From IMG/VR virus record IMGVR_UViG_3300032309_002937, positions 1 to 23,532 of that record: 23,532 nucleotides of DNA; one strand, 5' to 3'. This document shows positions 1 through 21,508 of this stretch, piece after piece. How positions within the stretch are numbered: position 1 is the first letter of the stretch; every line of letters starts with the position of its first letter. Origin of the DNA: a virus. The translations under genes and the position numbers were made by a program. Under the pieces are notes generated by a model. It did no database searches. It saw only the letters and a list, made by a program, of their open reading frames with translations, and had not been told where the DNA came from.

Positions 1-1494
1 AATCAATATTATCCTGACAACAAGAACATCTTCTTTTATATGGGAACAAGAGCGGAAGATAAGTTCTATCACTTTGCCAGCGGTCATCCAAAATCTGATT
101 CAGGATATACAAGAGTAACTTCAGCATTAACTGATTGTCAAACTTGTCTTTGTACTTCTGCAAATACAACCGATATAACTCTTTGTAATGGGGATCAGAT
201 TGAAATAGATTTTAATTGTACAACAATTTATCCATTATCAGGATTTACAATAGGTCCTGTTGAATGTACACATTCAGGAGGTACTTTATGTGGTTGTGAA
301 CACGAATTAATACCTGATGAAGACGCGAATCCTTTATTTAACTCAATGTCAAACGCATTAGCGGTTAAGTTTAGTGGAGACCCGAGTAATCCAAAAATTT
401 GTGTTAGAACATTAGTAATGACTGGAGGTTGCGAAGTAACGGGAGCTTGTGAAACATCAGGAATCACTTACGTTACAGGATACACAGTTCATGAATATTG
501 TTCAACGAAAGGTATTTGGGATAATTGTTCAGGTACAACATATAATACTCAGGAACATTGGGCTCAAATAGACGTTACTTGGAAAAGATATAGTTGGTTT
601 GATACGTGTGATTTGGAATATTTGGGTGGGTTAGGTTTAATAACAGATGTTGTTTATCCACCAGGAATTGAGGCATATCAAATACCTTTAATACAACCAC
701 CAATAACTCATAGTGGTATTACTGTTCCAACACAGAATGTATATCAATTGAATGAGAAATGGTTAGAAACAAAAAAATATAGAAAGGGTCAATTAATTAT
801 TTCTGTAAACGGAATGAGGTTCTTTGTTGTTGAAGATGTCGAAGAAATTATTCCAAGAGCATTAGATACACCAAAACAAAGACAAGTCGGAGTTCCATTT
901 AACATGTCGTGGGGTGGAGGAACTCAAGGATTACATGAGAATCTTACATTTACTGCATGTCCTGTAACAATCACAGGATTAACATATCAACAAGATCCTG
1001 AATGTTTCCCAACTTATATTTTGAGTGGAACAAGTCTATCAGAATTAACAACTAACATATTACTTGAAAGATATTTTGCAGGAACCTTTGAAGGGGGTAT
1101 ATCTCAATTTAGATTCTACATCGAACCTTTGAGTCAACCCGAAATAAGACATAATTTCAAACTATTGAAATCACAATTTTCGATGTATGATCCTTTCTGT
1201 CCAAGTTGTGCAATTTTACCTGATGATTTTGAATACGATGAATATTGTGCAAACCCAACTCCAACTCCAACACCAAGTACAACACCAACGAACACTCCAA
1301 CAACAACTACAACTCCGACAACCACTCCAACACCAACAGTGACAACAAATTTAACACCAACACCTACACCTAATCCAACATCGACACCGACAAACACGCC
1401 AACAATAAGTGTAACACCATCAATTACTCCGTCTCCATCGGCAACACCAGCTGTAGGACCTAACACGGTGTTTATGGGATTTGATATTTTATAA
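1..1494 (+). CDS. Tail-fibre/adhesin-like virion protein with Thr/Pro-rich tract (5' partial)
   Basis: The reading frame is open from base 1, so the start lies upstream of the window; the ATG at 40 is probably internal. The visible ~497 codons are rich in Thr, Ser, Gly and Cys, with cysteine clusters such as CQTCLC and CGCEHE and a later CPSC. The central part (about bases 740-1190) has a strand-rich pattern with the phrases ISVNGMRFFVV and FEGGISQFRFYIEPLSQPE, which resembles concanavalin/LamG-type lectin modules; this is an impression only. Bases 1255-1449 encode a mucin-like Pro/Thr tract, followed by a short tail ending in FMGFDIL. The protease gene starts 3 bases after the stop, so the two are probably co-transcribed. 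No signal peptide can be judged because the start is missing. Likely a structural, host- or surface-binding protein; the exact family is not recognised. Confidence 0.7.
   Translation, partial: NQYYPDNKNIFFYMGTRAEDKFYHFASGHPKSDSGYTRVTSALTDCQTCLCTSANTTDITLCNGDQIEIDFNCTTIYPLSGFTIGPVECTHSGGTLCGCEHELIPDEDANPLFNSMSNALAVKFSGDPSNPKICVRTLVMTGGCEVTGACETSGITYVTGYTVHEYCSTKGIWDNCSGTTYNTQEHWAQIDVTWKRYSWFDTCDLEYLGGLGLITDVVYPPGIEAYQIPLIQPPITHSGITVPTQNVYQLNEKWLETKKYRKGQLIISVNGMRFFVVEDVEEIIPRALDTPKQRQVGVPFNMSWGGGTQGLHENLTFTACPVTITGLTYQQDPECFPTYILSGTSLSELTTNILLERYFAGTFEGGISQFRFYIEPLSQPEIRHNFKLLKSQFSMYDPFCPSCAILPDDFEYDEYCANPTPTPTPSTTPTNTPTTTTTPTTTPTPTVTTNLTPTPTPNPTSTPTNTPTISVTPSITPSPSATPAVGPNTVFMGFDIL
1255..1449 (+). 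repeat. Low-complexity CCAACN tract encoding a Thr/Pro mucin-like linker
   Basis: In-frame runs of CCA/CCG/CCT alternating with ACA/ACT/ACC codons give repeated PT, TPT and TNTP units over ~65 codons at the C-terminus of the first protein. A closely similar tract occurs at 2930-3157, and both contain the phrase STPTNTPTI. Such tracts are extended, may be glycosylated, and can change length by recombination. Confidence 0.85.
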
Positions 1495-1497
1495 CAT

Positions 1498-2712
1498 ATG
1501 AGTGAGAATATTAAAAATAAAATAGAAGAACTTTTCCACAGCACACCTGAGGGTGTGGGAGTCATGCTTGGCAATAAAATAACCAACGGAGAATATACTG
1601 GTGAACAAAGTATTGTGTTCACTGTTGAGAAGAAAAAACCTCTATCTGAACTATCTCCTGAAGAAATATTACCATCTCAGGTTGAGATTGACGGAGTAAC
1701 CTATAAAACCGATGTGTTTGAAACAGGACTTATTGAGACATTTGCATGTCCTTCAAGTGTTACAAGTGCGTGTTATTCTTGGCAATATACACCTCCAGGA
1801 AATAGACAAACAATAAGACCATTGAAAGGTGGTGTTTCTTTAACTTCACAAAATTTACAAGGTTATGTTGGTACTTTAGGGTTTTTAGCCGTTGATTCTG
1901 CAACAGGTGCCTTAGTAGGGATTACAAACAATCATGTTGTTGTTGCAGATGCTTACTACAGCTCTTTCAGATCGACTACGGGTATCCTTCAAAATGAAAC
2001 ATCTGACAGTGCATACCAAACAGGAGATGCACAACCATCTTCATCTTCTTTAAAAATTGGTGAAGTTTTAAGATATGTTCCATTATCTACGCCTCCAACA
2101 ATGAATCAAGTGGACGGAGCTATGGTGTCTATCAGTCAGAGTGTAATGTCTGACAGTGAATCATTTAAACAATATGGTTTATCAGGAACATCAGTTATGC
2201 CATTTGCAACTACATCTGAAATCGATGCTTTGGTTGGTAATAGTTTGACATCAAGTAGTGGAAGATCTACAGGTGTAAAACAAGGACCTTTATGTGGTTT
2301 AACAATACAGGGAGTCAATTATGTGACAGGAGTTTCAGGTTATAAATTACAAGGGACGTCTACGGTTGCATATTTTAATAACTGTATTTCATTTACAAGA
2401 GTATATCCTGATTGTCAGTGGCCTATTTATCCAGGTGATTCGGGATCTGCGTTGGTTGCAACCATAGGTGGTGTTGATAAGATTGTAGGATTGTGTTTTG
2501 CGGGAGGACCAACAATAGGTATTGCTTGTAGAATAGATGTAGTTGCAGAACAATTAGGAATCCAAGCTTGGAATGGAACAACTCCTGAGTTTGTTGATTT
2601 AACAACAAAAAAATTGGTAACAGTTGCGGGTTTTAATAATACTAAAACAATCACTTGTAGTGGACAAACATTATGGCAAGTGGGTGTAATAAACGGAGTA
2701 AGAATATGTTAA
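1498..2712 (+). CDS. Chymotrypsin-fold (S1-like) serine protease
   Basis: A 404-residue protein with a complete candidate catalytic triad: His146 in TNNHVVV, Asp206 in QVDGAMV and Ser315 in YPGDSGSAL, in the order and spacing of the chymotrypsin clan. The N-terminus (about 15-80) has the pattern of a short domain ending in [12 protein letters not shown], a signature I associate with NAL1-like bacterial and plant trypsin-like peptidases. There is no signal peptide or membrane segment, so it would be made in the cytoplasm and may be packaged in the particle. It starts 3 bases after the upstream adhesin gene and ends 4 bases before the next one, so it sits between two Thr/Pro-rich virion proteins. 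Plausible roles are processing of those proteins or cleaving host surface proteins. The protease call is strong; the substrate is unknown. It is not the T4 prohead protease gp21 type by context or motif. Confidence 0.87.
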
Positions 2713-2716
2713 ATTA

Positions 2717-3697
2717 ATGGCACAAATAAGATACATAACAATTTCAAGTGATCTATATGATGGACAAGTATGTTTTGCCAGATTTTTAGACGCTGACGGG
2801 AATACAACGGATCTTGGCCAACAATTACTATCTTTTGAATTTTCAACAGACAGTGAATATGGAACGTGTTTTGTTTATGTTCCATCGGTAGATAATACTT
2901 TTGTTGTTCAGATATCTGAGGCGATTTGTCCAACACCAACACCAAGTGTAACTCCAACATTGACTCAAACACCAACAAATTCCGAAACTCCAACTCAAAC
3001 GCCAACTAACACTTCAACACCAACAAATACGCCAACTATTGGAGTTTCTCAAACACCAACTCCATCACTAACTTCCACACCAACAGTAACTCAAACCGCA
3101 ACTAATACACCAACACCAACAAGAGCCTCAACAACACCTACCCCAACACCAACATTTGTACCTTATATTCCTGGTAATTTCACTTTCAACGCTGATTATA
3201 TCGTATTGACATATGCATTTAATGATGGAACAGATTTAGATACAAGAACGAGAGTTACAGTTCCTGATATTGGACAAAATAGTCTACCTGACTACATCGG
3301 ATGGTGTTGTTCATCTGAATGGCCAACATCGGGTAATCCAATACTAACTTGGGGTGGGGATAATACAGGTACAGGTTTTGAATCTGTGTTAATCGATTTG
3401 ATACAATTTAAACTGGATTATCCTGGTCAAAACATTATAACAATTAATGCAAATGCTGGTTGGTATGGAGACGTGGGTACAAATCCTGTTAACATTCAGG
3501 CTAAATTGTATAAAGGAGGAACTATGATTGCTGTTCCTGATGAATATACATTTGTCAATGAAGGATTTACCGCAGCATATGGTGCAATTTCTACAGGAAA
3601 AGTGGTTACATTAAATCTATTCAATGACTGTATCGATGGTGAAGACGTTAGAAGTTTGGAGTATAATTTGATTAATTATCAAGGAAGATTTATTTAA
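2717..3697 (+). CDS. Virion-like protein with Thr/Pro-rich linker between two domains
   Basis: A 326-residue protein in three parts. Residues 1-71 form a small, probably beta-rich domain (starts [10 protein letters not shown], ends ISEAIC). Residues 72-147 are a Pro/Thr mucin-like linker. Residues 148-326 form a C-terminal domain rich in aromatic residues, Gly and Asn, with phrases such as [14 protein letters not shown] and [14 protein letters not shown] do not recognise the C-terminal family; its composition fits a carbohydrate-binding or receptor-binding head. The start follows the protease stop by 4 bases and has no Shine-Dalgarno sequence, like its neighbours. A strong terminator lies just downstream, making this the last gene of the adhesin-protease unit. 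The shared linker with the first gene suggests that linkers and heads have been swapped between virion proteins. Confidence 0.72.
2930..3157 (+). repeat. Second CCAACN tract encoding a Thr/Pro mucin-like linker
   Basis: About 76 codons dominated by Pro, Thr, Ser, Gln and Asn in units such as TPTQTPTNT. Parts match the tract at 1255-1449 at both protein and nucleotide level, so the two could recombine. It links the N-terminal and C-terminal domains of the encoded protein rather than ending it. Confidence 0.85.
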
Positions 3698-3726
3698 AAA
3701 TACTGAATATTAAAAACTATTTAGTT

Positions 3727-3762
3727 AAAACCCTCCACTTATCAGGAGGGTTTTTTATTTTT
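3727..3762 (+). terminator. Rho-independent terminator
   Basis: Stem CCCTCC (3731-3736) pairs with GGAGGG (3745-3750), extended by flanking A/T pairs (AAAA before, TTTT after) to about 10 bp. The loop is 8 bases and a T-rich run follows. It separates the adhesin-protease unit from the glycosyltransferase cassette. The A-run on the other side could let it work in both directions. Confidence 0.88.
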
Positions 3763-3780
3763 AAATCAAAATATATTTTA

Positions 3781-5046
3781 ATGAAAATTTTTGTACAAAT
3801 CGCCTCGTATAGAGACCCACAGTTAGTTCCAACAATTAAAGATATGTTGGAAAAGGCTAAAAAACCAAAAAACTTAGTTTTAGGTATTGCAAGACAGTTT
3901 AGTGAATCCGATGGTTTCGATAATTTAGATGAATTTAGAGAAGACAAAAGATTTAGAATTTTGGATATTCCATACCAAGAAGCACAAGGAGTTTGTTGGG
4001 CAAGACATTTAGTACAACAACTTTATAGTGGTGAAACATATACACTTCAAATAGACTCTCACATGAGATTTGTTCAGGATTGGGATGATATTTTGATCAA
4101 AATGATAAAGGGTCTTCAAAAGGATGGGTACAAGAAGCCTCTACTTACGGGTTATGTTCCCTCCTTTGACCCTGAAAATGATCCTGCTGGACGTGCAACA
4201 GACGCTTGGAGAATGGCGTTTGATAGATTTATTCCTGAAGGTGCGGTATTCTTCTTACCTGAAACAATTCCAGGTTGGAGAGAAATGAAGAAACCTGTAA
4301 CAGCAAGATTCTATTCTGCCCACTTCTGTTTTACATTAGGTCAGTTCTCAACTGAGGTTCAACACAACCCTGAATATTATTTTCATGGAGAAGAAATCTC
4401 AATTGCTGCAAGGGCATATACCTTTGGTTATGATTTATTCCACCCACACATCCCTGTAATTTATCACGAATACACTCGTAAGGGTAGAACAAAACAATGG
4501 GATGATGACAAAGAATGGGTAAGAAGAAATCAGAGAAGTCATCTCATGAATAGAAAATTATTTGGAATGGATGGAGAAACTCAAGAAGGTCACGATGGAC
4601 CTTATGGTTTTGGTACAGAAAGAACATTAAGAGAGTATGAAAAATATGCGGGTATCCTTTTTGAAAAAAGAGCTATTGATAAACATTGTTTAGATAAACA
4701 ATATCCACCAAGCCCATACAATTTTGAGACAGAAGAAGAATGGAAGAATAGTTTTGCCACAATATACAAACATTGCATTGATGTTGGTTATACAAGCGTT
4801 CCTGAAAAAGATTATGATTTTTGGGTAGTTGCATTCCACAATGCTAAAGATGAAACCTTATTTAGAAAAGATGCGGACAAGAATGAAATTGCAGGTTTCA
4901 TGAGAGATCCTGACGGGTATTGTAAAGTTTGGAGAGAATTTCAAACAACCGAATTACCAACATATTGGGTGGTTTGGCCTCACTCAGAATCTAAAGGTTG
5001 GTGCGATAGATTAACAGGTCAATTAAGTCACAATAACGTTAGCTAA
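3781..5046 (+). CDS. GT60-like (GlcNAc-transferase family) glycosyltransferase
   Basis: 421 residues. The N-terminus reads IFVQIASYRDPQLVPTI, the typical opening of the GlcNAc family (Pfam GlcNAc; CAZy GT60), and is followed by LQIDSHMRF (residues 89-97), where DSH stands in for the DxD metal/nucleotide-sugar motif of GT-A folds. Further family-like positions are AHFCFTLG (180-187), HGEEISIAARA (202-212) and VIYHEYTR (226-233). Characterised GT60 enzymes transfer GlcNAc from UDP-GlcNAc to hydroxyproline or Thr of proteins in Dictyostelium and trypanosomes. The last ~110 residues form an extra Trp/His-rich region of unknown role. This is the first gene of a tightly overlapping cassette. A TATATTTTA element abuts the ATG. 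The acceptor is unknown; the Thr/Pro-rich virion proteins just upstream are attractive candidates. Confidence 0.83.
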   Translation: MKIFVQIASYRDPQLVPTIKDMLEKAKKPKNLVLGIARQFSESDGFDNLDEFREDKRFRILDIPYQEAQGVCWARHLVQQLYSGETYTLQIDSHMRFVQDWDDILIKMIKGLQKDGYKKPLLTGYVPSFDPENDPAGRATDAWRMAFDRFIPEGAVFFLPETIPGWREMKKPVTARFYSAHFCFTLGQFSTEVQHNPEYYFHGEEISIAARAYTFGYDLFHPHIPVIYHEYTRKGRTKQWDDDKEWVRRNQRSHLMNRKLFGMDGETQEGHDGPYGFGTERTLREYEKYAGILFEKRAIDKHCLDKQYPPSPYNFETEEEWKNSFATIYKHCIDVGYTSVPEKDYDFWVVAFHNAKDETLFRKDADKNEIAGFMRDPDGYCKVWREFQTTELPTYWVVWPHSESKGWCDRLTGQLSHNNVS

Positions 5047-5792
5047 TGAATTTCAATTCACTACCAAAGTTTGTTATCAATCTTGAAAATAGACCAGAAA
5101 ATTTAGAAAATATTCGAAAGGAGTTGGACTACATCGGATGGGATTGGGAAAGGTTCGACGCAATTAATCGTGGAGATTATATGGGTTGTACTTTATCTCA
5201 CTTAGAAGTTATCAAGATTGCAAAAGAAAGAGGTTATCAAAGGGTTATGGTTATTGAAGATGACTGTACTTTTATGCCCTATGCCAAGTCTTTTTTAGAT
5301 AAATTAGAACAACAAATCACAGAGATAAAGTTTGGTGTTTTCAACGTTACACCAAGTTTAAATAGACATTTAAATGTTAGTGAGAAATATAACATGTTAT
5401 TGGATTTGACTAATGTTCCACCAAAACAAAATGAAAATCATAGTGAAACTTTTGCAACAAATATGTTAATCTATGATGTGTCAGTTTATGATGAAATACC
5501 TAAAATTGCTGAGACAGCTTTTGGTACTAAAGGTGATTACTATTATCCCATAGATGGATATTTGGCTAAATTTATTTATCCTAACTTTCAAAGTTATTGT
5601 CCTATATTACCTATTGCACCACAAAGAAGATCGTATTCTGACGTTTCACAAGGTATGTATAATAATTTTTATACTCAAACTTATAATTGGAATGAGTATT
5701 CTCCAATTAAATTGTCTCATGAATTCAGAGATGAATATAAAAATGATGAGATAAAAAAAGAAAAAAAACATTTAGAATATAATGAAGGTTAA
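5046..5792 (+). CDS. Glycosyltransferase family 25-like protein
   Basis: 248 residues. FVINLENRPENLENI at the N-terminus is the opening strand of family 25 (LPS-type) glycosyltransferases. It is followed by YMGCTLSHLEVIK (residues 45-57), matching the family's GCxxSH motif, and VMVIEDDCTFMP (68-78) with the acidic EDD expected for metal and sugar-nucleotide binding. Members transfer galactose or glucose to LPS, and related domains modify collagen hydroxylysine. The start overlaps the stop of the GT60-like gene by one base (TAATG), so translation is probably coupled. The C-terminus is Lys/Glu-rich and runs 11 bases into the next gene. No transmembrane segment is visible, so it should act in the host cytoplasm. 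Confidence 0.86.
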   Translation: MNFNSLPKFVINLENRPENLENIRKELDYIGWDWERFDAINRGDYMGCTLSHLEVIKIAKERGYQRVMVIEDDCTFMPYAKSFLDKLEQQITEIKFGVFNVTPSLNRHLNVSEKYNMLLDLTNVPPKQNENHSETFATNMLIYDVSVYDEIPKIAETAFGTKGDYYYPIDGYLAKFIYPNFQSYCPILPIAPQRRSYSDVSQGMYNNFYTQTYNWNEYSPIKLSHEFRDEYKNDEIKKEKKHLEYNEG

Positions 5793-6666
5793 GTTTATAA
5801 CAGCAATTTATGCAAGGTTGGCAGGTTCTGACTTAGGAGGAAGACATGCTAGAGGAGGACACTATAAATTTAGTTTATTGTCACTATTAAAAATGACAAA
5901 TGCGGATTTTATTTGTTATACATCAGAAGATGAAATATATGATTTAGAAATGTTTTTTTATCATGAAAATAATATTTCTAAAGATCAGTTAAAGTTTGTT
6001 GTTTTTGATTTATTCAACACCAAATTCAAAGATTTGATTAATAATAAAAAAAACTTGGAACAAACTCGGAAATCTGATAGGTGTGTTGAGGTTCAATACT
6101 CCAAATTTAATTGGTGGTGGAATGAAGATAAGACCTATGATTATTATTTTTGGATTGATGCAGGTCTATCTCATTGTGGATTAGTCCCAAATAAATTTTT
6201 ACCTCACGAAGGAACACAAAGAAGGTATTATGAGTGTACATTGTTTCAAAATGATTTTTTAAAAAATTTGATTGAGTTTACAGGTGACAAAATTTTTATC
6301 ATGGGAAAAGAAAATGATAGAAACTATTGGTCAGGTACTGTGAATCCAAAATATTATACCGAGTTTGATAGATCAATACATATCATCGGTGGTTTATTTG
6401 GTGGTAAAAAGGAGAATTGGGATTGGTTGGTTTCAACTTTTGAAGATTATGTAAAACAAATTTTAGAGGACAATGATGAAGGAATTCCGATGGAAGAACA
6501 AATTATGACTTTAATGTATTTCAATCATAAAGATAGATTTGAGAGAAAGCATTTCGATATTTGGTGGTGTCCTGATAACTGTCCTCAAGGAACAGACATG
6601 ACACTTTTTGACAGAAACAAAAGTTTCTATAAAATACTTTTAGAATTAAACAAAATAGATGAATAA
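5782..6666 (+). CDS. HtrL/YibB-like glycosyltransferase-type protein
   Basis: 294 residues. It has an N-terminal strand (VKFITAIYA), a YYFWIDAGLS motif at residues 121-130 that resembles the acidic core of HtrL/YibB proteins, an IHIIGGLFGGKKENW segment (199-213), and an IPMEEQIMTLM motif (235-245). The same three landmarks, in the same order, occur in the N-terminal half of the next gene (YLYWLDGGI, RGGFFGGPKD, MGTEESIFSIM), so the two are likely distant paralogues. HtrL/YibB proteins are encoded in bacterial LPS and capsule loci and have a GT-A-like pattern, but few have been characterised. The gene overlaps its upstream neighbour by 11 bases and its downstream one by 8. Sugar donor and acceptor cannot be read from the sequence. 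Confidence 0.7.
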   Translation: MKVKFITAIYARLAGSDLGGRHARGGHYKFSLLSLLKMTNADFICYTSEDEIYDLEMFFYHENNISKDQLKFVVFDLFNTKFKDLINNKKNLEQTRKSDRCVEVQYSKFNWWWNEDKTYDYYFWIDAGLSHCGLVPNKFLPHEGTQRRYYECTLFQNDFLKNLIEFTGDKIFIMGKENDRNYWSGTVNPKYYTEFDRSIHIIGGLFGGKKENWDWLVSTFEDYVKQILEDNDEGIPMEEQIMTLMYFNHKDRFERKHFDIWWCPDNCPQGTDMTLFDRNKSFYKILLELNKIDE

Positions 6667-8341
6667 CATTACTATTGTAACAGGAATTTGGGATATCGGT
6701 CGTGATGGATTGAGTGAAGGTTGGTCAAGATCATATCAACATTATTTGGATAAATTCGAGAAACTTCTCGAAGCTGATGTAAACATGATAATCTTTGGGG
6801 ACAAAGAATTAAAAGAATTTGTTGATAAAAGGAGAGATCCAAATAAGACTCAGTTTATTGAACGTGGTGTAGAATGGTTTAAAAACAATGAGTTTTATAA
6901 TAAGATTCAAACAATTAGGAATAGTTCTGAATGGAAAAACTTGGCAGGTTGGTTACCTGAATCAACTCAATCGAGATTGGAACTTTATAACCCTCTTGTG
7001 ATGAGTAAAATGTTTCTACTTCATGATGCTAAAATCATGGATAGATTTGATTCAGAATATCTATATTGGTTAGATGGTGGAATAACTAATACTGTACATC
7101 CAGGATATTTTACACATGATAAAGTATTAGACAAAATTTCAAAATATACTTCGAAATTCTCTTTCATATGTTTTCCGTACGATGCGGAAAAAGAGATTCA
7201 TGGGTTTGAATATAATCACTTAAACTCAATTGCCGGTGATAAGGTCAAAAGAGTTGCAAGAGGTGGATTTTTTGGTGGACCAAAAGATTCAATATCAGAT
7301 ATGAATGGTATCTATTATAATCTTTTGAATACAACTCTTAGAGATGGATATATGGGTACTGAAGAATCTATATTCAGTATTATGTGTTACAAACATGCAG
7401 ACATCATCAATTATTTTGAGATAGAGGGTAATGGTTTAATCGGTAAGTTTTTTGAAGATTTAAAGAACGATGCACTTGTACCAAAATCAGAAATGAAAGT
7501 AGGGTGTGAATCTAAGACTCCATTAGATCCAAATAAAGTTGCGTTATATGTTATTACTTTCAATAGTCCAAAACAATTTGAAACATTGATAGAATCAATG
7601 AAACAATATGATGAGGATTTCTTAAAAAGACCAACTAAGTTTTTATTAAATAACTCTACAGATAACTCAACATTCTCAAGATATGATGAGTTGTGTAAAG
7701 AATATAACTTCGAACATATTGTACCTGATGAAGGTAATTTAGGTATTTGTGGTGGAAGACAATTCATTGCTGAACATTTCGACAAAACAGGTTTAGATTA
7801 TATGCATTTCTTTGAAGATGACATGTTCTTCTATCCTGAAGAAGATGTTTGTAGAAATGGATTCAATAGATATGTTAAAAACTTTTATACTAAGACTTTG
7901 GAGATTATCCATAAAGAAAACTTTGACTTTTTAAAGTTAAATTATTCTGAGTTTTTCGGTGATAATGGAACACAATGGGCTTGGTATAATGTACCTCAAA
8001 GTGTGAGAGAAGAATTTTGGCCAGGTAAAAATAGATTACCTGAAATGGGATTAGATCCAAACGCACCTAAGACAAGATTCGAAATGGTATTGTCACACAA
8101 AACAATCCCATACGCTGTTGGTGAAATCTATTATTGTAACTGGCCTCAGATAGTATCGAAAGAAGGAAATAAGAAAATGTTCTTGGAAACAACTTGGGCA
8201 AGACCTTTTGAACAAACTTGGATGTCTTACATTTACCAAGAAATGAAGAAGGATAGAATTTATGCCGGATTACTTCTTATGACACCTACAGAACACAATA
8301 GATTTGAACACTACGAAAGAAGTTTACGTAAAGAATCATAA
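6659..8341 (+). CDS. Two-domain protein: HtrL/YibB-like domain fused to a GT-A glycosyltransferase domain
   Basis: 560 residues. Residues 1-270 match the HtrL/YibB pattern well: ITIVTGIWDIGR at the N-terminus, then a YLYWLDGG acidic motif (134-141), RGGFFGGPKD (201-210) and GTEESIFSIM (233-242). Residues 293-560 begin a second domain with VALYVITFNSPKQFETLIESM, the first strand and helix of a GT-A (GT2-like) fold, then NNSTDNS, EGNLGICGGRQ (358-368) and YMHFFEDDMFF (381-391) carrying the acidic metal motif. Fusing two transferase-like units suggests consecutive sugar additions on one acceptor. It is the last and longest gene of the cassette, overlapping the previous gene by 8 bases. No terminator follows. 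Confidence 0.8.
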   Translation: MNNITIVTGIWDIGRDGLSEGWSRSYQHYLDKFEKLLEADVNMIIFGDKELKEFVDKRRDPNKTQFIERGVEWFKNNEFYNKIQTIRNSSEWKNLAGWLPESTQSRLELYNPLVMSKMFLLHDAKIMDRFDSEYLYWLDGGITNTVHPGYFTHDKVLDKISKYTSKFSFICFPYDAEKEIHGFEYNHLNSIAGDKVKRVARGGFFGGPKDSISDMNGIYYNLLNTTLRDGYMGTEESIFSIMCYKHADIINYFEIEGNGLIGKFFEDLKNDALVPKSEMKVGCESKTPLDPNKVALYVITFNSPKQFETLIESMKQYDEDFLKRPTKFLLNNSTDNSTFSRYDELCKEYNFEHIVPDEGNLGICGGRQFIAEHFDKTGLDYMHFFEDDMFFYPEEDVCRNGFNRYVKNFYTKTLEIIHKENFDFLKLNYSEFFGDNGTQWAWYNVPQSVREEFWPGKNRLPEMGLDPNAPKTRFEMVLSHKTIPYAVGEIYYCNWPQIVSKEGNKKMFLETTWARPFEQTWMSYIYQEMKKDRIYAGLLLMTPTEHNRFEHYERSLRKES

Positions 8342-8356: not shown

Positions 8357-8737
8357 ATGGAATTTTTTATTAATCAAAATGCAACCCTTCCTTTACTGAA
8401 GATGCAGATTGTTAAAGATGGTAGAAGTGACTATGTCAACTTTATGAATTTGTTAGAAATATCAAACATATTCTTCACCATGATTAACACTGCAAACGGT
8501 ATTCCGAAAATTGTTTCTGCACCAGCATACATTGTAGAGAAAACATTTGCAGAACCGGGAACACCGACTGAGTATTATGTTTATTTCCAATTCACAGCAA
8601 CTCAAACAAATACACCAGGAAGATACGAAGGACAATTTTTATTAAGTTCCGATGATGGTAATTTAATTCTACCGATAAGAGAACAATTATTTATCAACGT
8701 ACAACCTTCATTTGTTTCTTCAACAAACTGTTGTTAA
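8357..8737 (+). CDS. Small virion-like protein, possibly baseplate/fibre-associated (BppU-N-like pattern)
   Basis: 126 residues, starting MEFFINQNATLPLLKMQIV and ending in NCC. The pattern of a short N-terminal strand with a 'natural ligand' run (INQNATLPLLKM), a central FFTMINTANGIPKIVSAPA and a later GRYEGQFLL resembles N-terminal domains of baseplate upper proteins and other phage Ig-like domains. This is a fold-level impression, not a firm family match. There is no transmembrane segment or signal. It sits between the glycosyltransferase cassette and the DNA polymerase, with its own TATTTAT element 4 bases upstream. The paired C-terminal cysteines are unusual for a cytoplasmically assembled protein. 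Function is otherwise unknown. Confidence 0.65.
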   Translation: MEFFINQNATLPLLKMQIVKDGRSDYVNFMNLLEISNIFFTMINTANGIPKIVSAPAYIVEKTFAEPGTPTEYYVYFQFTATQTNTPGRYEGQFLLSSDDGNLILPIREQLFINVQPSFVSSTNCC

Positions 8738-13073: not shown

Positions 13074-14606
13074 TTATTTTATGTCGTATAACAGTGAGTC
13101 TTTTGGAAAGACGAAGTTTCCACCGATGATATTTGGTTTTTTGTTGAAAATGAGAACGTTCTTACCTTTCTGAAAGATTAACCAATCGGTACTATAATTT
13201 TTTACATTACCCGTACCTTTTAAAGTAATCGTATTATTTTTGTCGATTCTTTCTTTATAACCTTTGATTTGAGCAGTATGAGTTTTTCCATTCAATGTGA
13301 TTTTTGCATCGATACCTTTTAACATATCTTCTTCTCCACCTAACTTGCCAGTTTTTTCAGCAACTTTACCTTTAAAAAATCTGTTAATAATTGCAACCGT
13401 GATTTCTTCTCTTTTGTCACCAGCAGAATCTGTATCAATTAAAGATCTCATTAAATTTTGGAAAGTAGGACTTTCTCTATTAAAAATTCTAAATTTAAAA
13501 TGATCTAATGCTTTAACAAATCTTTTTATTTCTCTGTTTTGTTCACCAGGTGTTTTACCTATAAAAGTTATTGGATCTTTTTTTTGTTCAATTGATCTAA
13601 TTACCTTGTTAACATCTTTCATAAGAATGCAAAACGCGGTATAGTTTGTATTAAGTTTGTTTAAAACTGATCTACCAACTGATTCGAAATTATAAATTCC
13701 TGCTAAGTTACCTTGATTATCTTTGTCAGCCCAATATTCTCTGAACACTTCTTTTAAGATTCTATCAATAGCGTTTCTATATTCTATTTCAATCGGTCTG
13801 TTAACATTGAACATTACTCTTATTGCTTCTGACTCTTCAGTACCACACTTTTCTGATTTTTCTTCCGAAAGTATTTGTCTAAACTTAACTGATTCTGCAA
13901 GTTTTGTTTCAGTTTTCATTTCGTACATTTTCGAAACAAAATCCCAATTGATTACCTTCCAAAAATTTGAAATGTATTCATCTCTTTTGTTTCTGTACTT
14001 CAAGTAATATGCGTGTTCCCATAAATCAAGACCCAACAAAGGGAATCCCCCACCTTCAATAACATTCATTAAAGGATTGTCTTGGTTTGGAGTAGACATG
14101 ATTTTTAATCTGTTCTGACTTGTCAAAACTAACCATACCCAACCTGACCCGAATCTTTCTTTGGCAATTGTTTCGAACTCTTTCTTGAAATTATTAAAAG
14201 ACTTGAATTCTTTTTTTATTTTGGTTTCAAGTTCTCCCGTCAATTTTATTGGTTTCGGAGATAACATATTCCAAAACAATGCGTGGTTAAAGGCACCACC
14301 AGCATTATTTCTAATTGTTTTGTCGTATCTTGATATTGATTTGATAATTTTCTCCAAATCAAGATCTCCGTATTGTTTCTTTGAGAGTGCGTCGTTTAGT
14401 TTATCTACATAGCCCTTGTAATGCTTGTTGTAGTGAAAGTTCATTGTCTCTGGATCAATAAACGTTTTGAGGGCTGAGTAAGAATAGGGAAGTTTCTCTA
14501 TTCCGATTTTTTTCATTTCTGAGATTAACAACTTGGTTTCTTCGGTAACGTGATTTTCTATTATTTGGGTTTCTAGTTGTTTAATCTTCTCTTCTGTTCT
14601 ATTCAT
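13074..14606 (-). CDS. Mn/Fe superoxide dismutase fused to a putative PD-(D/E)xK nuclease domain
   Basis: 510 residues. Residues 39-230 are a full-length Mn/Fe superoxide dismutase: LPYSYSALKTFIDPETMNFHYNKH, NNAGGAFNHALFW, FGSGWVWLV and LGLDLWEHAYYLKY. All four metal ligands are present (His58, His108, Asp194, His198). Gln175 in STPNQDNPLM with Gly at the alternative site points to the Mn type. A ~270-residue C-terminal part follows in one frame without a stop. It has helical stretches, a conserved-looking Glu (REEITVAI, ~400), then GIDAKITLNGKTHTAQIKGY (431-450), whose Asp433 and Gln446-x-Lys448 fit a PD-(D/E)xK core with Gln in the acidic position. SOD converts superoxide to peroxide and oxygen; the fused domain may act on DNA. 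Usual SODs are ~200 residues. It sits between the helicase and neck genes. SOD is near certain, the nuclease moderate. Confidence 0.88.
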   Translation of the reverse strand: MNRTEEKIKQLETQIIENHVTEETKLLISEMKKIGIEKLPYSYSALKTFIDPETMNFHYNKHYKGYVDKLNDALSKKQYGDLDLEKIIKSISRYDKTIRNNAGGAFNHALFWNMLSPKPIKLTGELETKIKKEFKSFNNFKKEFETIAKERFGSGWVWLVLTSQNRLKIMSTPNQDNPLMNVIEGGGFPLLGLDLWEHAYYLKYRNKRDEYISNFWKVINWDFVSKMYEMKTETKLAESVKFRQILSEEKSEKCGTEESEAIRVMFNVNRPIEIEYRNAIDRILKEVFREYWADKDNQGNLAGIYNFESVGRSVLNKLNTNYTAFCILMKDVNKVIRSIEQKKDPITFIGKTPGEQNREIKRFVKALDHFKFRIFNRESPTFQNLMRSLIDTDSAGDKREEITVAIINRFFKGKVAEKTGKLGGEEDMLKGIDAKITLNGKTHTAQIKGYKERIDKNNTITLKGTGNVKNYSTDWLIFQKGKNVLIFNKKPNIIGGNFVFPKDSLLYDIK

Positions 14607-18301: not shown

Positions 18302-21300
18302 ATGGCAACAACACAAAAAGTATTTGTATCACCTGGTGTTTACACTACAGAGACCGACCTGTCCTTCGTGGCACAGAGTGTCGGTGTAACAACATTAGGT
18401 ATCGTGGGAGAAACCCTAAAGGGGCCTGCCTTCGAACCAATATTCATTACGAATTATGATGAATTCACAACTATTTTCGGACCAACATCTCCTGAAAAAT
18501 TTGTGAATACACAAATCCCTAAATATGAGGCGGCGTATATCGCAAAGTCTTATTTACAACAATCTAACCAATTGTTTGTTACAAGAATTCTTGGTTTGTC
18601 AGGTTATGACGCTGGTCCTTCTTGGTCTATTACAACAATTGCAAACGTTGATCCTTCAACAATTGCTACTGGGTCGACTTCTAATTTCACATTTTTATTT
18701 TCGGGTAATACGGGTGGAACAATCAGTCTTACTGCACTTACAACACCAAATATTATTTGGAATAATTTAGATACACCGTTTACTCAAAATAATGGTACTC
18801 AAACTTCTTTCAGAAATGATATTAACACACAGATTTTAAATATTGCAAAGGCAACAGGAACAACATCGGCAACATCTGTATACGTGTATGGTGCAATTAG
18901 TCCTGATAAATTATCTGATTTAACGGGTTCAACATATACTGGTGTAACTAACGCTCTTGGTGTTAGTGATATGGACGTGGATAATATTGTTTTTTCAGCT
19001 GAAAGCAATGATGAATGGTATTACGCAACTTTCAATAAACCTAACACATCTTTAAGTGGATATACAGGATTTTCTTTTGTCAATTACGTAACAGTTATGA
19101 CAGGTGGAACCACAGGTTCTTACCAAACTTTTTCAGGTCAGATGACAGGATCCTATTATCAATTCAGTGGAGGATCATATACAGAATATGATAATTTAGT
19201 TGTTGCAACTTTGAGATCAAGAGGAATTAGTTTATACAATAACGTAACTGACGGACCTAGATACCAAGTATCGGGTTTAACTGATGTTGTTATTGATACA
19301 TCAGGTGCATATTCTGCAATTACATCAAATCCGTTTTCAACATTTGCAATATCAGGTATTACAATTCCAGATGAAAATGGAGTTAGAGATACCTTCTCTT
19401 TTGAGACTTCATTCCAATCTTCAGATTCAGAATATATTACAAAGGTATTGAGTATTGCAAACTTTACTAAATCAAGATTTGAAGTTCCTTTATTTGTCGA
19501 AGAATATTATCAAACAATGTTGAACTGGTCATACAACAACGGTTACATCCGTGGTATTAATCCAAATCTAACTGAATTACCTGAAGCAAGAGATGGTAAT
19601 GTAAGTTCAATTGCAAATAATTTATTCCAATACCAAAGTCCTAAATCACCTTGGATTGTTTCTGAATTAAGAGGTAACAAAGTTTATAACTTATTCAAAT
19701 TCATTTCAATATCTGACGGAGATTCTGCAAATACTGAAATCAAAATTTCAATCATGAATATGTCATTCAACAACAGTACGTTTGACGTTATGATTAGAGA
19801 TTTCTTTGATACAGATGCAAATCCAGTTGTGTTAGAGAAATTCACAAACTGTACAATGGACCCAGCTAGTAATTCATTTGTAGCTAAGAAGATTGGTTCT
19901 TCTGATGGAGAATATGCTTTGAATTCAGCATTTGTAATGCTTGAGTTATCAGAAGAATATCCTGTTGACGCTTTACCGTGTGGATTTGAGGGTTACATCA
20001 TGAGAGACTACTCAGGTGATATTCAATCTCCAATCCCTATCTATAAAACAGAATATTATTATCCTGGTCAAGTAATTTACAATCCTCCATTTGGAACAAC
20101 AAATGGTGGTACTAATCAAGTACAAAGTGCTGGTGATAACGTAAGAAGAACATTTTTAGGTTTCTCTAATACAATCGGGATTGATGAATCGTTCTTAGAA
20201 TTCAAAGGATTCCAAAATATTTTAGATCATTGTCAAACAAATGTTGAAAACCCTTGGAACTATAAAACTAAAGGTTTCCACATGGACTCAGGTGCAACTG
20301 TTGTAACAATCGGAAATACTTTTATGACTAGTGGTCAGTCAGCTTTCGAAGTTGGTGATGCTAGTTTTAATCAAGAACCTACAAGTGTGGAAAACCCTTA
20401 TTACAGATTATTTGCAAGAAAATTCACAGTATGTTTAGCAGGTGGTTTTGATGGTTGGGATATCTACAGAGAATCAAGAACAAATACAGATGACTATATT
20501 TTAGGTGGACCAGGATATTTAAAAGGAGCTTGTGCTTCGTCAAGATACCCAACAGCAACAGGATGGGGTGCATTTAGAAACTATGCAGTAGGTGATCAAG
20601 TATCTGATTGGGCAAACACTGACTACTACGCATACCAATTGGGTATATCAACGTTCGCTAACCCTGAGGCAACAAATATTAACGTATTTGTAAGTCCAGG
20701 TATCGACTATGTTAACAATAGTGGATTGGCTGAATACGCTGTTGATATGGTTGAAGATGACAGAGCAGACTCAATTTATATCGTTACAACTCCTGACTAC
20801 GACATGTTCGATCCGTCAACTGTTGATAACAACGGATTTATCTATCCAACTGAAGCGGTTAATGACTTAGAAAACACTGGTATCGATTCGAACTACACAG
20901 CAACTTACTACCCATGGATTCTTGTAAGAGATACAGTTAACAATACACAACTTTATATTCCTTCAACAGGAGAAGTTTGTAGAAACTTAGCTCTAACAGA
21001 TAACATTGCGTTCCCTTGGTACGCATCAGCGGGTTACACAAGAGGTCTTGTTAATTCAATCAAAGCTAGAAAGAAATTAACTCAAGAAGATAGAGATACT
21101 CTATACAAAGGAAGAATCAACCCAATTGCAACCTTCTCTGACGTAGGTACAGTAATTTGGGGTAACAAGACACTTCAAGTTGCAGATTCTGCTTTAGATA
21201 GACTGAATGTTAGAAGACTTCTATTACAAGCTCGTAAGTTGATTTCAGCGGTGGCTGTAAGATTACTGTTCGAACAAAACGATGAAATCGTAAGACAACA

Positions 21301-21508
21301 ATTCTTAGACGCTGTAAATCCTATCATGGATTCTATCAGAAGAGACAGAGGTGTTTACGACTTCCGTGTAACAGTTTCTTCATCACCTGAAGATCTTGAC
21401 AGAAATACACTAACAGGTAAAATTTACTTAAAACCAACGAAAGCTCTTGAATTCATTGATATTGAATTCTTGATTACACCAGCAGGTGCTACTTTCGAAA
21501 ATATCTAA
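18302..21508 (+). CDS. gp18: Tail sheath protein, gp18-like (oversized)
   Basis: 1068 residues. The N-terminus KVFVSPGVYTTETDLSFVA, followed by GIVGETLKGPAFEPIFITNYDEF and YEAAYIAKSYLQQSNQLFVTRI, is diagnostic of contractile tail sheath proteins (Phage_sheath). The C-terminal ~190 residues are the conserved polymerising domain (TDNIAFPWYASAGYTRG, ALDRLNVRRLLLQARKLI, DLDRNTLTGKIYLKPTKALE). The sheath forms the contractile tube that drives injection. T4 gp18 has 659 residues; here ~400 extra residues are found mainly in the middle, in Ser/Thr/Gly-rich strand-type stretches (for example residues ~115-330), probably surface-exposed decoration domains. It is preceded by its own promoter element and followed by a strong terminator. 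Codon use and composition look like its neighbours. Confidence 0.97.
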   Translation: MATTQKVFVSPGVYTTETDLSFVAQSVGVTTLGIVGETLKGPAFEPIFITNYDEFTTIFGPTSPEKFVNTQIPKYEAAYIAKSYLQQSNQLFVTRILGLSGYDAGPSWSITTIANVDPSTIATGSTSNFTFLFSGNTGGTISLTALTTPNIIWNNLDTPFTQNNGTQTSFRNDINTQILNIAKATGTTSATSVYVYGAISPDKLSDLTGSTYTGVTNALGVSDMDVDNIVFSAESNDEWYYATFNKPNTSLSGYTGFSFVNYVTVMTGGTTGSYQTFSGQMTGSYYQFSGGSYTEYDNLVVATLRSRGISLYNNVTDGPRYQVSGLTDVVIDTSGAYSAITSNPFSTFAISGITIPDENGVRDTFSFETSFQSSDSEYITKVLSIANFTKSRFEVPLFVEEYYQTMLNWSYNNGYIRGINPNLTELPEARDGNVSSIANNLFQYQSPKSPWIVSELRGNKVYNLFKFISISDGDSANTEIKISIMNMSFNNSTFDVMIRDFFDTDANPVVLEKFTNCTMDPASNSFVAKKIGSSDGEYALNSAFVMLELSEEYPVDALPCGFEGYIMRDYSGDIQSPIPIYKTEYYYPGQVIYNPPFGTTNGGTNQVQSAGDNVRRTFLGFSNTIGIDESFLEFKGFQNILDHCQTNVENPWNYKTKGFHMDSGATVVTIGNTFMTSGQSAFEVGDASFNQEPTSVENPYYRLFARKFTVCLAGGFDGWDIYRESRTNTDDYILGGPGYLKGACASSRYPTATGWGAFRNYAVGDQVSDWANTDYYAYQLGISTFANPEATNINVFVSPGIDYVNNSGLAEYAVDMVEDDRADSIYIVTTPDYDMFDPSTVDNNGFIYPTEAVNDLENTGIDSNYTATYYPWILVRDTVNNTQLYIPSTGEVCRNLALTDNIAFPWYASAGYTRGLVNSIKARKKLTQEDRDTLYKGRINPIATFSDVGTVIWGNKTLQVADSALDRLNVRRLLLQARKLISAVAVRLLFEQNDEIVRQQFLDAVNPIMDSIRRDRGVYDFRVTVSSSPEDLDRNTLTGKIYLKPTKALEFIDIEFLITPAGATFENI

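Follow-up and report, generated by a model that had tools for sequence, protein, structure and literature searches.

A probable mucin-type O-glycosylation cassette beside Thr/Pro-rich virion proteins in a contractile-tailed phage

Only a few cases are known in which the proteins of phage virions are glycosylated. In mycobacteriophages, the enzymes responsible are encoded by the phage itself. The glycans of these virions are described at the C-termini of capsid and tail tube subunits, as the work is cited in two later papers (Freeman et al., 2023, cited in PMC12619734 and PMC12691614). A second case is the cultured phage XacN1, for which proteomic analysis yielded at least two virion glycoproteins and in which two glycosyltransferases, ORF334 among them, are listed (Yoshikawa et al., 2018; PMC5852040). 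ORF334 proves to be a GT60 gene, and it lies in a single cluster with a carbamoyltransferase gene and genes resembling F and G of the locus described below. XacN1 therefore combines GT60, F-like and G-like genes, proteins with Thr/Pro-rich (TP) tracts (ORF325, 350, 370 and 372) and reported virion glycoproteins in one cultured phage, whereas the main text of its description names neither the GT60 family, nor TP tracts, nor the virion proteins or sites that carry glycan (PMC5852040). Finally, a 2025 paper on aquatic 'moraphages' reports four core glycosyltransferase orthogroups, to which no role is assigned, and gives DNA glucosylation as a reported role (PMC12619734). These are large aquatic phages that, like the phage studied here, have a tail sheath and polymerase B, and the lineage of our phage may belong to them; a text search of that paper for threonine, proline, mucin and GlcNAc returned none of these words (PMC12619734).

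A literature search for a phage system that glycosylates TP tracts or mucin-like proteins returned nothing beyond the XacN1, moraphage and mycobacteriophage papers. An earlier note on this DNA, which knew of no described phage system with such a layout, must accordingly be narrowed: virion glycosylation in mycobacteriophages, glycoproteins in XacN1 and glycosyltransferases in moraphages are all known, whereas a mucin-like TP-tract system was not found in the literature. Outside phages, the closest known enzymes belong to families GT60 and GT27. The acceptors of the Trypanosoma cruzi GT60 enzyme are Thr-rich mucins. The characterised GT60 enzymes, namely Gnt1 of Toxoplasma and Dictyostelium and the T. 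cruzi enzyme, are polypeptide alpha-GlcNAc-transferases (PMC6939170), and in both GT27 and GT60 a DxH motif substitutes for DxD (PMC7185993). GT27 comprises the polypeptide GalNAc-transferases of animal mucin O-glycosylation.

The window, that is, the whole stretch of DNA analysed, is a 23.5 kb virus record (23,532 nucleotides) from a contractile-tailed phage; downstream lie genes for sheath, tube and baseplate, and a DNA polymerase of family B is also encoded. The left end of the window carries an operon at 3781-8341 that probably constitutes a mucin-type O-glycosylation cassette for the Thr/Pro-rich virion proteins of the phage. The features that bear on this reading are the following.

1..1494, + strand: TP-tract protein A, whose 5' end lies beyond the window, with a C-terminal mucin-like tract at 1249-1458
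1498..2712, + strand: trypsin-like serine protease (phrog_20754, E 1e-23), with a GDSGSAL motif in its translation
2717..3697, + strand: TP-tract protein C, with a mucin-like tract at 2930-3172 and a C-terminal domain of phrog_24956
3727..3754, + strand: intrinsic terminator between the TP genes and the glycosyltransferase operon
3781..5046, + strand: GT60 enzyme D, a predicted priming polypeptide alpha-HexNAc-transferase (PF11397, E 4e-68; phrog_24687, E 8e-166)
5046..5792, + strand: GT25-family enzyme E, predicted to extend the chain (PF01755, E 9e-12), a swappable middle gene
5782..6666, + strand: HtrL/YibB-like enzyme F, also predicted to act in extension (hhalign to the N-terminal half of G, 98.9%)
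6659..8341, + strand: two-domain enzyme G, with an HtrL/YibB half (PF09612, E 5e-17) and a glycosyltransferase-like half, the conserved last gene of the cassette
8357..8737, + strand: putative BppU-like baseplate protein H, which adjoins the cassette and has homologues with TP tracts
18302..21508, + strand: tail sheath P (phrog_23, E 8e-55), with a Ser/Thr-rich N-terminal third

From the left end, the order is thus protein A, protease, protein C, terminator and the genes D-E-F-G, whose reading frames overlap by 1, 11 and 8 bp. Every element of the layout first proposed, Thr/Pro-rich proteins followed by a terminator and four overlapping glycosyltransferase-type genes, is found in the window, with some amendments. 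Both TP proteins are there, but the trypsin-like protease gene lies between them and the first open reading frame is truncated at the window edge. D, E and G match Pfam families, whereas F has no Pfam family match and is homologous to the HtrL/YibB half of G.

The TP tracts are pronounced in composition. Residues 417-486 of protein A contain 30 Thr and 19 Pro in 70 amino acids, and residues 72-152 (approximately) of protein C contain 32 Thr and 19 Pro in 81. Peak Thr plus Pro content per 40 residues reaches 34 in A and 26 in C, whereas 2000 residue shuffles of these proteins never gave more than 22 and 23, respectively. Because their codon usage is mixed, the tracts are not simple microsatellites. 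Homologues of A in related loci mostly share 46-52% identity with it (83% in L033), and the body of A gave no match among phage records. A long homologue in L023 (1785 aa) carries Laminin_G and phrog_8510, annotated 'virion structural protein'; Laminin_G lectin-like domains and a virion structural family are thus represented among TP proteins near the cassette. The terminator also recurs: in 73 of 78 related loci, a similar hairpin with a T-run, its stem altered, separates the upstream gene from GT60.

Enzyme D would act first in the proposed chemistry. The assignment of the first gene to GT60 stands firmly, with 230.9 bits to PF11397 (CAZy GT60) over a curated cut-off of 21 and a DxH motif (D92-S93-H94) that is invariant over 66 homologues 38-90% identical to D. 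An AlphaFold model of D (pLDDT 91.9, pTM 0.84) has a GT-A fold near GT27. When it was compared with solved structures, the 29 top entries were all GT27 polypeptide GalNAc-transferases (Z 18.8-21.8 over about 262-281 residues), whereas the next structural family reached Z 16.5. The structure comparison called for in the earlier note thus favours a polypeptide transferase by a clear margin. By sequence, D departs from GT27: it is about 12% identical to these structures in the structural alignments, a direct sequence search against solved structures gave no match where the fold search succeeded, and PF11397 alone matched D at E <= 0.1, with no match to the GT27 domain set, including its ricin-type lectin domain; the C-terminal domain of D may therefore be of another kind. 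The model and the family together make D a predicted priming polypeptide alpha-HexNAc-transferase.

With the eukaryotic GT60 polypeptide alpha-GlcNAc-transferases, D shares the Pfam family, the DxH motif and the predicted GT-A fold. In contrast to them, it is phage-encoded, heads an operon beside its likely substrates and mostly occurs without a PF13640 prolyl hydroxylase. Of 33 large GT60 records, four have a hydroxylase of that family above cut-off, and on the count for this one family a Skp1-like hydroxyproline route was not kept as a general mechanism.

The nature of D also bears on the possibility that the enzymes glycosylate hypermodified phage DNA, which we regard as very improbable. 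DNA glucosylation is the reported role according to the moraphage paper (PMC12619734), and E and G weakly match the HMC glucosyltransferase family phrog_842 (E 0.04 and 5e-4, the latter at residues 339-426 of G). Thymidylate-synthase-like genes accompany GT60 in 14 of the 33 large records; they may be ordinary thymidylate synthases, no such gene occurs in the other 19, and as an indicator of DNA hypermodification the count was set aside as uninformative. Against action on DNA, the characterised members of the family of the first enzyme act on polypeptides, and this enzyme, the most conserved of the cassette, has a polypeptide-transferase fold.

The remaining genes would fit the extension of a glycan whose composition may differ between phages. 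G matches PF09612 with 62.7 bits (cut-off 24.1), and F reaches that family solely through profile-profile comparison with G. Among the 80 loci closest to D, a set chosen for its resemblance to D, so that the conservation seen for this gene is biased, D is followed by E-F-G in 57; ten further architectures occur, and G closes every cassette counted. The genes swapped in encode glycosyltransferases of families GT2, 7, 10, 11, 25, 34 and 92, including fucosyl- and galactosyl- types, as well as FkbM methyltransferases and sulfo-, carbamoyl- and pyruvyl-transferases. Such a cassette, with conserved end genes and an exchangeable middle of glycan-building enzymes, recalls bacterial capsule and O-antigen loci. 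It differs from them in its likely substrate, which is protein, and in that no lipid-carrier enzyme, flippase or polymerase families were among those found in the scanned cassettes.

In a different explanation, the cassette alters host LPS or capsule against superinfection or re-adsorption in lysates, and adjacency to TP genes reflects a shared late module only. The YibB family is mainly known from LPS biosynthesis, which counts in favour of a host target. GT25 is likewise known mainly from LPS biosynthesis (Pfam description, PF01755). The fold of the first enzyme, closest to polypeptide transferases, and the lack of lipid-carrier, flippase and polymerase families in the scanned cassettes argue against it, and we consider a host-surface role unlikely. 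The distribution of TP tracts, which bears on both this explanation and the preferred one of virion protein glycosylation, is as follows.

A search with D recovered relatives in at least 540 contigs of viral origin, and the 80 best matches were read. Among these, 75 loci had room upstream, and in 71 of them the gene immediately 5' of GT60 carried a TP tract, mostly at a gap of 57-105 bp and typically about 80 bp. Under permuted gene order, adjacency of GT60 and TP genes was expected in 25 of these 75 closest loci and was observed in 73; for L352-type loci, the figures were 9.3 expected and 17 observed among 41. Against permuted order, adjacency was not strong in the polB-anchored, XacN1-type or bacterial sets (not significant, p 0.10, for the bacterial set), and adjacency alone is consequently not a universal rule. 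In the XacN1-type lineage, for instance, the nearest TP gene usually lies at a distance of 5-7 kb or in another part of the record. When GT60 was clustered at 75% identity, only 10 of the 22 informative clusters had, in the majority of their members, a TP gene no more than 3 kb away. The enzyme itself is widespread in the lineage: in polB-anchored contigs with at least 9 kb upstream, GT60 is present in the locus in 35 of 40 and elsewhere in the contig in four more (39/40).

Since the closest loci had been selected for their similarity to D, we drew two samples with less bias, comprising 50 contigs retrieved through a TP DNA pattern and 50 through a random 14-mer. PF11397 was present in nine of the TP-tract contigs and in none of the random ones (Fisher p 0.0026). 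These nine GT60 enzymes are 28-83% identical to D, and in seven of the nine contigs a TP gene is no more than about 3 kb away, in differing gene settings. Conversely, 29 of 35 records chosen for cassette or lineage contained the TP DNA pattern, as against 1 among 50 random contigs, a comparison tilted in favour of the GT60 records by their larger average size. The co-occurrence of tract and cassette for which the earlier note proposed to search related phages is therefore observed. Its converse, cassettes that consistently stand without mucin-like proteins and beside LPS or DNA-modification genes, is not the pattern; the exceptions form a minority.

These exceptions lend some weight to a host-surface target. 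The other two GT60 contigs of the TP sample (L354 and L355) have sugar-type neighbours and no nearby TP gene, and bacterial GT60 loci mostly lack TP tracts, with tracts in 11 of 80 and several striking pairs with TP proteins. Against such a target, the TP association repeats under differing gene orders.

A further alternative is that the GT60 cassette acts on another phage or host protein and that TP tracts are plain flexible linkers. GT60 was not found in 41 of the 50 TP-tract contigs, so that TP tracts need no GT60 cassette, although most of the records are fragments, and the XacN1-type TP genes are several kilobases distant; both observations are compatible with this alternative. The narrow spacing in most of the 75 loci speaks against it, as does the evidence from cultured phages, where the TP DNA pattern was found in both GT60 carriers tested and in none of 11 phages that lack GT60. 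The domain family of protein C follows the same division among the cultured phages read, with a TP tract in XacN1 and RAS14, both GT60-positive, and none in S-SSM7 and crAss, both GT60-negative. An acceptor other than the TP proteins is thus quite unlikely, slightly more so than a host-surface role.

Enzyme families, fold, gene order, TP association and cassette exchange are supported by sequence and structure. From them, we infer the acceptor, the donor sugar, the order of addition and the benefit to the phage. The cassette would act on the upstream TP array, which ends with A and C, and in related phages also on the candidate baseplate protein H and on the sheath. A cytoplasmic GT60 enzyme would place a HexNAc, probably alpha-linked GlcNAc from UDP-GlcNAc, on Thr and Ser of the TP tracts, after which E (GT25), F (YibB-like) and G with its two domains would build and cap a short glycan. 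Entering tail and baseplate, the glycosylated proteins may form stiff stalks covered with sugar. Since the enzymes lie directly beside mucin-like virion proteins, it is very likely that these phages, a widespread family of large aquatic viruses, decorate their own tails with sugars. As exchange affects the middle genes and leaves the first and last enzymes in place, the type of glycan would vary between related phages. We also favour, with rather less confidence than the reading of the operon itself, the broader proposal that large aquatic phages possess a complete mucin-type system, in which GT60 primes TP tracts of adhesins, baseplate and sheath and an exchangeable set of enzymes determines a phage-specific tail glycan.

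Such a system would share with that of mycobacteriophages its phage-encoded glycosyltransferases and its virion-protein glycans, here predicted, and would differ in that the glycans would sit on mucin-like TP tracts of proteins from tail and baseplate, in the leading position of GT60 and in its exchangeable multi-gene cassette. If the proposal is correct, tail glycan types would be a form of phage serotype variation, of which no description was found, and phages would appear to vary their surface glycans as bacteria vary capsules. It would also explain the Thr/Pro tracts in many aquatic phage proteins, link phage tails to the enzyme fold behind animal mucins and yield a naturally diverse collection of soluble enzymes for O-glycosylation. 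In hundreds of viral contigs, the enzyme stands together with the tracts that are its likely substrate and with the variable sugar-building genes, which makes the question of the acceptor directly testable, and XacN1 is an available cultured phage with reported virion glycoproteins.

The extension of the candidate substrates to baseplate and sheath rests on relatives of the window. The best solved matches of H are phage baseplate proteins (4v96, 6v8i, 9m8o and 3uh8), including BppU, at weak scores of Z 7.8-8.4 over a background of about 7.5; fusions of H with a TP tract occur in loci L347, L349, L350 and L419. The earlier note's side suggestion that the sheath inserts may be targets gains support from relatives. 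The window's own sheath P contains no TP tract, despite its Ser/Thr-rich N-terminal third, but among the tail-sheath homologues of polymerase-anchored loci, 27 of 55 carry TP inserts near residue 290.

Thr/Pro-rich (TP) tract proteins are also encoded beside genes of the GT60 glycosyltransferase family in some bacteria, as in the following loci.

L505:5942-9227, Jiulongibacter sediminis: TP-tract protein between two GT60 genes
L537:4388-12056, Sphingomonas MAG: TP protein, then GT60 and further GT60 genes

The arrangement in Jiulongibacter sediminis is likely a bacterial counterpart of the TP/GT60 pair. There, the TP-tract protein carries a possible export signal, and 79 bp separate its gene from one of the flanking GT60 genes. 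In the Sphingomonas MAG, the first GT60 gene starts 5 bp after the TP protein gene, whose product contains an Rv2525c-like hydrolase domain and has an N-terminus resembling baseplate J protein; this locus perhaps encodes a phage-tail-like particle. In two contigs of the TP-tract sample (L354 and L355), GT60 genes adjoin sugar-type genes, with no TP tract nearby; an upstream gene in L354 reads like a GDP-mannose dehydratase.

Two further genes of the window, and sheath homologues in related contigs, are listed below.

1498-2712 (+): trypsin-like protease, flanked by both mucin-like proteins
13074-14606 (-): phage-encoded Fe/Mn superoxide dismutase fusion (PF02777, E 7e-41; PF00081, E 9e-23)
L460, from 17308 on, and other loci like it: homologues of the tail sheath with a TTTTTIPFTPTPTPS-type insert near residue 290

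The protease possibly acts in processing the TP proteins or in protection from them. In some relatives (L450, L453 and L454), a protein resembling it has a TP tract of its own. The dismutase is joined to approximately 280 further residues, which matched no Pfam family.
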